DNA of 50,555 nucleotides from Campylobacteraceae bacterium. Lineage in GTDB: Bacteria; Campylobacterota; Campylobacteria; Campylobacterales; Sulfurovaceae. The stretch lies in contig JALVTE010000019.1 in NCBI GenBank assembly GCA_027024155.1, positions 1 through 50,555 on the forward strand, in the 5' to 3' direction. Shown here piece after piece: positions 22,831-46,710 of this stretch. Numbering within the stretch: position 1 is the stretch's first letter; every line of letters starts with the position of its first letter. The notes beneath the pieces were generated by a model, which saw only the letters and a program-made list of their open reading frames with translations, did not search any database and was not told the DNA's origin. Position numbers and translations under genes: made by a program.

Positions 22831-22882
22831 AGCTTTTATCTTTATGCTTAGTGCATTTTATAGACTTAAAAATCTCTCTAAG

Positions 22883-22936
22883 CATATGGAAAACCTCATA
22901 AAATTGTGGATATAGTATTCTATAGAACTCAGGTTA
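22883..22936. repeat. Relic end of the 45481-45750 MITE family
   Basis: This 54-base stretch (CATATGGAAAACCTCATAAA…ACTCAGGTTA) matches both ends of the element at 45481-45750, allowing about ten differences. No convincing opposite end is seen upstream, so it is a solo or decayed copy. It lies 16 bases beyond the stop of the minus-strand kinase-like gene. Confidence 0.6.
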
Positions 22937-22951
22937 ATAGAGGAATTTCTT

Positions 22952-44515: not shown

Positions 44516-45070
44516 TTAATTTTTCTTACTTGCATTTCCTAGACTAAGTAGCATAATACCATCAAATAGTAAGCTAATTCCTACGAATATCCCAACTAAC
44601 CACATAGTTTTAATTGGGTTTGGAATAGAATATATAAAAAAGATTCCCAATGCTAAAGATAAGATAGCATTTAAGAGAACTATCCACCATACACCTTCAG
44701 GTTTTATACTAAATGCTAAAGAGAAGTTAATGATACTATCTATAAAAAAGTATATAGTAAATAGTATACCTAAAGCAATAACGCCACTAATTGGGTTTAT
44801 TATTACTAAAGCCCCAACAATTAAATATAGTAGAGCTTTTAACCATCCTAACCAATCTTTTTTATTTATTTGCCATGTTTGTATAGCAATAAATATACCT
44901 GCAAAAAGCATTAACCAACCTATAAATAGAGCTGAAGTTAATGACATTATATTAGGAAATACAATTCCTAATGCACCCAAGATAATAAACAATACACCGA
45001 AAATATTACTATATTTAGCAAATTTATCAGTTATATCTTTATCATTTGCAAACATTTTATAATTAAGCAT
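44516..45070 (-). CDS. HdeD-family (DUF308) membrane protein
   Basis: A 184-residue protein with six membrane helices spread from residue 24 to 178 and the repeated GxxxIxxPxxS pattern (LGIVFPNIMSLTSALFIGW; ALVIINPISGVIALGI) of HdeD. HdeD takes part in acid and high-density stress in E. coli, by an unknown mechanism. It is the third gene after yfdX and the DUF1931 gene. AGGAGG precedes the ATG. Confidence 0.88.
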   Translation of the reverse strand: MLNYKMFANDKDITDKFAKYSNIFGVLFIILGALGIVFPNIMSLTSALFIGWLMLFAGIFIAIQTWQINKKDWLGWLKALLYLIVGALVIINPISGVIALGILFTIYFFIDSIINFSLAFSIKPEGVWWIVLLNAILSLALGIFFIYSIPNPIKTMWLVGIFVGISLLFDGIMLLSLGNASKKN

Positions 45071-45091: not shown

Positions 45092-45813
45092 TTATAGAGT
45101 CAAGTCTAAAATTTTAGAACTTTTCTCAATTAATTCATGAGTTACCTGACGACTTTCGTTATCTATCTCTTTCATTACTTTTGCAAGTACTACTAAAAGA
45201 GCTCCTGTAATCTCTGGTAATTTAGCCTCTAAGTCTGCTGATAGAGGGTACTTTAATGGTGGTACAGTTGATAAATAGTTTAAAATATCTTCAATAGGTA
45301 ACTCCTCTTCTAGTTTTTTAAAGCTAATTATAGTCTCTTGTAGACCTTTTGTAATTGGTAAATCGCTCTCCCAAATTACATCTCTACCATTCATATTGGC
45401 ATTTCTCTCGCCAGCTAATAGTAAATCGTGTAGCTTCTTCTCTACAATGTCTGTAATATCTTTTGCGTGCCCTTTATTTAACCTGAGTTCGATGGTATAC
45501 CATATTCACAATTTTATGAGGTTTTTCATAGGTAACGACAGATTTTTGCAGGACTAGCTAAAGCTAATTCAATAAAATCTGTTTAAGCATATGGAGAACC
45601 TCATAAAACCCGAAGGGAAGCCTAAAAATAGGCAATCTTCCCATAATTAAATTCTTGAATTAGCTAGTGGCTAGTCCTGCGAATTGAATTATAAAAATCT
45701 TACCTATTTTTAGGCTTTTGTGAATACGGTATTCCATCAAACTCAGGTTATATCTCTAAAGAAGCAGCTTTTCTAAAAAGTGCTTCTAATTTTGTAAATC
45801 CTACTACTGCCAT
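45092..45813 (-). pseudogene. DUF1931 histone-fold gene split by a MITE
   Basis: The 5' part starts at 45813 (AAGGAT upstream) and reads MAVVGFTKLEALFRKAASLE-I before running into the element. After it the frame resumes NKGHAKDITDIVEKKLHD at 45478 and continues to 45092 (NGRDVIWESDLPITKGLQ). Joined, they make about 149 residues that align end to end with the DUF1931 family (MAV-G-FxRFFRxAAxLDVDK…NGRDxIxxxDLPITKGLQ), a small predicted histone-fold protein. The second part has an internal ATG at 45394 and could give a 100-residue fragment. It lies nine bases after yfdX and 21 before hdeD. Confidence 0.85.
45481..45750. mobile_element. MITE-like element, about 270 bp, with ~30-bp inverted ends
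   Basis: Left end ACCTGAGTTCGATGGTATAC (45481 on) and the reverse complement of the right end ACCTGAGTTTGATGGAATAC (45748 back) match over about 30 bases, each next to a TA. Inside are further inverted pairs: GCAGGACTAGCT (45555) with AGCTAGTGGCTAGTCCTGC (45660-45678), and GAAGCCTAAAAATAGG (45619) with CCTATTTTTAGGCTT (45703-45717). No ORF. TA at both flanks suggests an IS630/Tc1-mariner-type mover. A relic is at 22883-22936. Confidence 0.8.
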
Positions 45814-45822
45814 TTTAAATCC

Positions 45823-46710
45823 TTATTTTTTAAATGTTTTTAGAGCTTTCTCTTTAAACTCTTTTAGTTTTGCTTTTAAATCTTCGAAAAGTTTCTCTGC
45901 TTTGTTTTTACCTTTAATCTCTTTTTCTACATTTGATATTGCATCGTTTAAGACTTTATAAGTAGTGTCTGATGTGCTTGTATAACCTAAAGCTTCATCT
46001 CTTTTAAGATCTGCTTTTGCTTGCTCCAAATGTGAAAGTGCTAATTTTTTATCTGTTTTAGCAATTTTACTTGCTGCATTAATTAATGTTTCTGCTTCTA
46101 AAATACCTATAGGTGTAACATCTGTTACAGTTACAAATGTATTTAAAGTTGCTAATAGTACTCTTTTTGCATCTTCTGTTTTTCCCTCTTGTAGGTATTT
46201 AGCAGCTTGCTTTAATGCAGCTGGATATGTTGCTAATGGTAAATTAGTTGTTGATACATCTATTTCATCAACTAAAGCTGATAAAATATGTCTAGCATCT
46301 TGTACTCTTTTATTTTTTAGCATAGCTTCTGTAGTTATTACAGCATTTTGTGCATCGTATGCAGTTCCCACAAACTCTTGCACTATAACTTTGCTATCAA
46401 CAGGAATAAGTGCAGGTGCTTTTGGATTACTTAATACAACCTCAATTTTCCCAATCGCTTTTTCTAACTCTTTTTTTGCTGTATTCGTGTCGTTTTTATT
46501 TAATGCAACTAAAACGTTAGTTACTAATTTAATAGATTCAACAGCCTCTTTTATAACTTTTACACCGTCTTTTTTATTGTTAGCATCTTTTTTAGCTTTG
46601 CTGATTGCAGATGCTGTAACAGATTTTGTTGATGCTTTTGCATCTAACGCAAATGCATTTGTTCCTAAAAGTGATATTGCTACTAATGATGAAAGCAATG
46701 TTTTTTTCAT
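45823..46710 (-). CDS. YfdX-family exported protein
   Basis: A 295-residue periplasmic protein with a signal peptide (MKKTLLSSLVAISLLGTNAFA) and helical YfdX domain (about 25-250) with DARHILSALVDEIDVST and TPIGILEAETLINAA, followed by a Lys-rich coiled tail (about 255-295). YfdX belongs to the EvgA acid-resistance regulon in enterics, alongside hdeD, and is reported there as a periplasmic stress protein. It heads the yfdX-DUF1931-hdeD operon; AAGGAG precedes the ATG. Confidence 0.88.
   Translation of the reverse strand: MKKTLLSSLVAISLLGTNAFALDAKASTKSVTASAISKAKKDANNKKDGVKVIKEAVESIKLVTNVLVALNKNDTNTAKKELEKAIGKIEVVLSNPKAPALIPVDSKVIVQEFVGTAYDAQNAVITTEAMLKNKRVQDARHILSALVDEIDVSTTNLPLATYPAALKQAAKYLQEGKTEDAKRVLLATLNTFVTVTDVTPIGILEAETLINAASKIAKTDKKLALSHLEQAKADLKRDEALGYTSTSDTTYKVLNDAISNVEKEIKGKNKAEKLFEDLKAKLKEFKEKALKTFKK

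Follow-up and report, generated by a model that had tools for sequence, protein, structure and literature searches.

An interrupted DUF1931 gene

The stretch of DNA analysed (the window, 50,555 bp) is positions 1 to 50,555 of contig JALVTE010000019.1 in the Campylobacteraceae assembly GCA_027024155.1, the source genome. On its minus strand, a gene for a DUF1931 histone-fold protein is divided by a short sequence resembling a miniature inverted-repeat transposable element (MITE). The reading favoured here, with a probability of about 85%, is that a non-autonomous element of about 270 bp broke the gene, and that it belongs to an order-wide family with exchangeable ends and a conserved core. A DUF1931 gene split by a MITE-like element of about 270 bases with inverted ends of about 30 bp had been proposed in an original prediction made from the sequence alone, and both claims were confirmed, as the element runs AACCTGAG...CTCAGGTT from 45480 to 45749 and its 36-nt ends are 89% complementary. 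Features of the gene, the element and a second family copy are listed below, with reference to alignment A1 and to R1, a covariance model of the arm.

45092-45813, minus strand: interrupted DUF1931 gene
45751-45813, minus strand: DUF1931 5′ fragment of 21 codons; a TAA (45750-45748) at the element junction closes the frame, where orthologues go on LDIHKGHAKDI
45092-45478, minus strand: DUF1931 3′ fragment, frame open down to 45092
45480-45749, no strand assigned: non-autonomous mobile element (MITE-like), 270 bp, ends AACCTGAGTT / AACTCAGGTT
45480-45511, plus strand: left terminal inverted repeat, 5′ side of the outer stem (A1 columns 1-32)
45718-45749, plus strand: right terminal inverted repeat, 3′ side of the outer stem (A1 columns 241-272)
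45512-45608, plus strand: arm B hairpin, apical motif GCAGGACTAGC...GCTAATTCAA (R1 match, 92.1 bits, E 2e-17 for the genome)
45609-45617, plus strand: central small hairpin CCC-GAA-GGG between the arms (A1 columns 131-139, 100% paired)
45618-45717, minus strand: arm C, inverted paralogue of arm B (R1 match on the minus strand at 45623-45712, 41.9 bits)
22868-22937, minus strand: truncated second family copy, matching element positions 1-70, in which one terminal repeat and a portion of an arm survive

The ATG at 45813 opens a frame encoding MAVVGFTKLEALFRKAASLEI (45813-45751), which ends at a TAA composed of the flanking base T45750 and the first AA of the element. The net insert in the gene is 272 bp (722 less 450), which shifts the frame. 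Deletion of 45479-45750 restores the sequence GAG ATA AAT AAA and a joined reading of 149 residues; the frame therefore closes as originally predicted, except that 272 bases rather than 270 have to be removed. The joined product was correctly predicted to be DUF1931, and matches PF09123 over profile positions 1-138 (E=2.1e-53, 180.7 bits) against a Pfam gathering threshold of 21.8 bits, by which membership was judged. The 3′ piece alone scores 122.9 bits over positions 43-138, and its first in-frame ATG, at 45394, leaves 100 residues. There is no intact DUF1931 frame in the source genome, and a search of that genome for a second copy found none. The disruption is visible in the sequence, and DUF1931 is probably left as a null or 5′-truncated gene, which supports the predicted inactivation or truncation. 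Breakage of a gene by a MITE-like insertion is in itself an ordinary event.

An uninterrupted allele had been expected in sister genomes, and a full DUF1931 gene was found in six genomes of the same genus (G004, G005, G006, G007, G008 and G009), with the order YfdX-DUF1931-DUF308 identical in all six. These orthologues are 73-93% identical, the closest at 92.6%, and all read LDIHK at the position of the junction. A seventh genome, G010, carries YfdX and an uninterrupted 5′ part of DUF1931 at a contig end. G003 and G011, two nearly complete genomes of the same genus, lack DUF1931, which is therefore dispensable in the genus.

Ends, fold and core of the element family

The source genome holds five full copies including that in the window, the other four being 80-88% identical to it, as well as many partial copies, and there are dozens of copies in the genus. 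Miniature forms of 33-57 bp also occur, some with intact duplications. No protein coding was found in the element copies. Short, non-coding, dispersed in multiple copies, bounded by terminal inverted repeats and associated with a target duplication, the family has the properties of MITEs. In L046, L054 and L301-L317, the full-size element and its duplication together measure 270 bp, whichever of the two end types is present (267+3 or 266+4); this is a multiple of three, yet no frame read by eye is open through the element. In the metagenome-assembled genome AP10.008 (JACXUN01 contigs, L152-L228), many contigs break off some 70-95 bp into the element, a pattern suggestive of numerous nearly identical copies and of recent activity. 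A repeat of the TTAAGCTTAAAGC type, unrelated to the element, is also dispersed many times through genomes of the genus (L004 flank, query 554-659).

An exact 3 bp target duplication at T-WNW-A was detected in 30 of 63 non-redundant copies (mean 5.7 and maximum 14 in 2000 shuffles), and none was longer. Among these 30 copies T precedes the duplication at position -1 in 29 and A follows at +1 in all 30, and empty sites in relatives confirm the 3 bp gain for L046, L047 and L054. Insertion at TA by an IS630/mariner-type element was rejected, with 2 bp flank identity occurring at shuffle frequency and 3 bp identity strongly enriched. The TA on both sides of the window copy, originally taken as the target duplication, is thus not the one this family makes.

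The element folds far better than its shuffles (z of -11 as DNA and -15 as RNA). Thirty full copies, chosen by their ends, share a common fold made up of the outer stem, two inverted arms and the small CCC-GAA-GGG hairpin, with the apical motif GNAGGACTARC...GYTAATTCAA in arms B and C. In these copies 96.8% of cells pair. Changes to both bases are seen in one or more copies for 43 of the 103 pairs, and the 208 double-changed cells compare with 66 in shuffled and at most 18 in slid alignments. Kissing of the two apical loops, which are complementary in the window copy, was rejected: each loop folds on itself, and the complementarity accordingly does not covary from copy to copy.

R1 was run on 200 Campylobacterales genomes and on a phylum-wide sample of 200. 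The arm was present in 64 of the 200 Campylobacterales genomes, representing 25 of 70 genera, and all 18 carriers in the phylum-wide sample were Campylobacterales, the number of other-order genomes in that sample not being shown. In an alignment of 40 arms, 97.2% of cells are paired though the stems are almost freely replaced, 32 of 37 pairs show double changes, and 393 cells are double-changed (96 when shuffled, at most 75 when slid). Each of the unpaired bases A24, G37, A39, C43, A57 and A62 occurs in 39-40 of the 40 arms, and the C-A mismatch at columns 43/57 in 39; the GNAG, GGC and AA loop bases are among the most conserved positions. G-U pairs outnumber A-C by 106 to 5 in the arms, the corresponding figures for the outer stem being 16 and 29. 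The excess in the arms favours RNA, although related copies share wobbles, G-T is the milder mismatch in DNA as well, and the order-level set came from a model that itself looks for pairing. A combined alignment of type I and type II arms was dropped when the stems failed to align.

In genomes outside the genus, this core is bounded by different ends. With GGGCACCTCTAA ends, a 4 bp duplication was found in 16 of 34 copies (shuffle mean 4.3, maximum 10); the core also occurs between TTACCGCACC ends, and in single cases with AGGCTAC and with AAGTTACGCAC ends. The apical motif is retained across these families even where stems and ends are entirely different. As duplications of two lengths, 3 and 4 bp, accompany one core, different transposases would appear to act on it. 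At one locus (L347, G000 C31), two core-bearing elements with two further end types flank a RAYT-like Y1 gene.

No family in Rfam 15 (4227 models) matched the element, the only matches at E ≤ 0.5 being sub-threshold and attributable to chance, and searches of plasmids, phages and IMG/VR gave no match. A literature search on MITEs and palindromic repeats of this bacterial group turned up nothing relevant. An order-wide structured core with exchangeable ends is not ordinary, no description of one was found, and it looks new.

State of the broken gene and its neighbours

The genes adjoining DUF1931 are its operon neighbours.

45823-46710, minus strand: YfdX-family gene, upstream (PF10938, 5.9e-34)
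44516-45070, minus strand: DUF308 (HdeD-like) membrane protein, downstream (PF03729, 9e-19)

Compared with G004, dN/dS for DUF1931 is 0.106, with no relaxed constraint outside the junction, and is 0.14 for residues 50-149. The window lineage has 8 synonymous and 2 non-synonymous changes in residues 23-149 and thus shows no visible onset of decay. However, 6 of 16 lineage-specific substitutions lie within 15 nt beside the junction (P about 3e-6), and the triplets flanking the window copy differ (TTT and ATA), leaving its duplication unreadable. The recent insertion proposed in the original prediction is therefore plausible given the lack of decay, with the lost duplication and the substitutions at the junction speaking against it.

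An open, conserved 3′ part would also be expected if the fragment were still used as a shorter protein, translated from ATG 45394 or from a non-standard start within the element, and a promoter-like site at 45355-45327 could serve it. This is improbable: the low dN/dS mostly reflects the time before insertion, promoter-like sites are no commoner in the real sequence than in shuffles, and the fragment is without the first 42 positions of the PF09123 domain. That the interruption is an artefact of joining repeat copies inside the gene might be suspected of a repeated element in a 123-contig assembly. It is, however, extremely improbable, with the window copy at most 90% identical to any other copy found and the two flanks being parts of one gene, correctly spaced on a single contig. 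The broken gene would be a natural knock-out of a histone-fold protein in a stress-type cluster.

Interpretation and relation to known systems

Under the favoured reading, the element would have inserted at codon 21-22 of DUF1931 through its inverted ends, moved by a transposase acting in trans that normally duplicates 3 bp at T-WNW-A, and would halt translation after 21 residues and shift the frame within the YfdX-DUF1931-DUF308 cluster. The family would have two layers, with exchangeable terminal repeats serving transposition and a conserved double-hairpin core that would keep its fold by compensatory change and keep specific unpaired bases. Most likely the fold is needed, as RNA or single-stranded DNA, for the propagation of the element itself. 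More tentatively, the core might be a mobile nucleic-acid module in its own right, probably in the form of a structured RNA, that repeatedly took on terminal repeats from different transposons as it spread through the Campylobacterales, with selection acting on the fold and a few unpaired bases and not on an encoded protein.

Several observations weigh against the favoured reading. The window copy has no recognisable duplication, and a search for a transposase flanked by matching ends, in the genus and in several complete genomes rich in copies, found none. The end patterns led to no parent transposon in the genus, among the loci tabulated as pattern hits or in six genomes that are complete or nearly so, and neither did solitary ends with their neighbouring reading frames. 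PF01609 and PF01797 genes with end scans likewise yielded none, the rve, IS30, ISL3 and other families not having been searched. DDE_Tnp_1 had no match in G133, G027, G063, G101, G138 or G169. One candidate parent, a pair of element ends 2196 bp apart at L230 (4637-6832) with matching ATT duplications, was rejected, as it encloses cobU- and cobT-like genes and no transposase; it looks as if the element had captured host genes, the alternative being chance pairing of two partial copies. Order-level members were also found with a covariance model, which favours pairing sequences, and the arms show no orientation bias relative to neighbouring genes and thus give no hint that they act in host transcripts.

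Long palindromes undergo arm-to-arm correction, and covariation in a palindrome can also come from template switching between its arms during replication. The core could then be a functionless quasi-palindrome kept symmetrical in this way and the family an ordinary MITE, in keeping with the covariation of the outer terminal stem, where G-U is not preferred over A-C. We consider this rather unlikely, because correction should erase mismatches and asymmetric loops, yet these are the most conserved positions, and the apical motif has outlasted the replacement of stems and ends. A unit of the REP/REPIN type moved by a Y1 (RAYT) transposase is a far less probable identity, and one already largely contradicted. 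To our knowledge Y1 elements produce no target duplication, whereas exact duplications occur here. Y1 genes are present in the source genome, one of them near a copy, but none was matched in G133, G138 or G101, all of which carry copies, and an arm was nearby at only 1 of 23 Y1 loci tested. Inverted pairs in which GNAG precedes a short mismatched hairpin do recall GTAG-type REPs (PMC3733652), but in arm B the N of GNAG is usually C.

Among known systems, the DUF1931 histone-fold proteins TTHA1479 (1WWI) and aq_328 (1R4V) are matched by the orthologue, which aligns with both solved structures over nearly its full length, but in the source genome the gene is broken. Proteins of this family are without the usual DNA-binding residues of histones (Schwab et al. 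2024, PMC11390915). IS630/Tc1-mariner MITEs with a TA duplication resemble the window copy in having palindromic ends adjoining TA, but in the family described here the duplication is 3 bp long and lies within T-WNW-A. GTAG REPs and REPINs (TnpA-REP/RAYT) share the inverted pairs of short hairpins after a GNAG-like tag and differ from the present elements, which have 3 or 4 bp duplications, a length of 266-270 bp with an outer stem, and no Y1 linkage in most cases tested. The tag itself is GNAG, and Y1 genes are lacking in several carriers and mostly have no arm beside them, which places the elements outside that class.

Bacterial hairpin MITEs such as Correia/NEMIS, RUP, ERIC and Nezha are also short and non-coding, have inverted ends and a target duplication, occur in many copies, fold when transcribed and can interrupt genes. 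In the present family no parent transposon was found, and across the order one conserved double-arm core is combined with two or more clearly distinct types of end and duplication. MITEs are usually viewed as passive deletion derivatives with junk interiors, whereas here it is the interior, with its compensatory changes and invariant mismatches, that is conserved across the order while the ends vary. This arrangement, which the original prediction had not seen, makes it testable what a non-coding mobile element needs its interior for.
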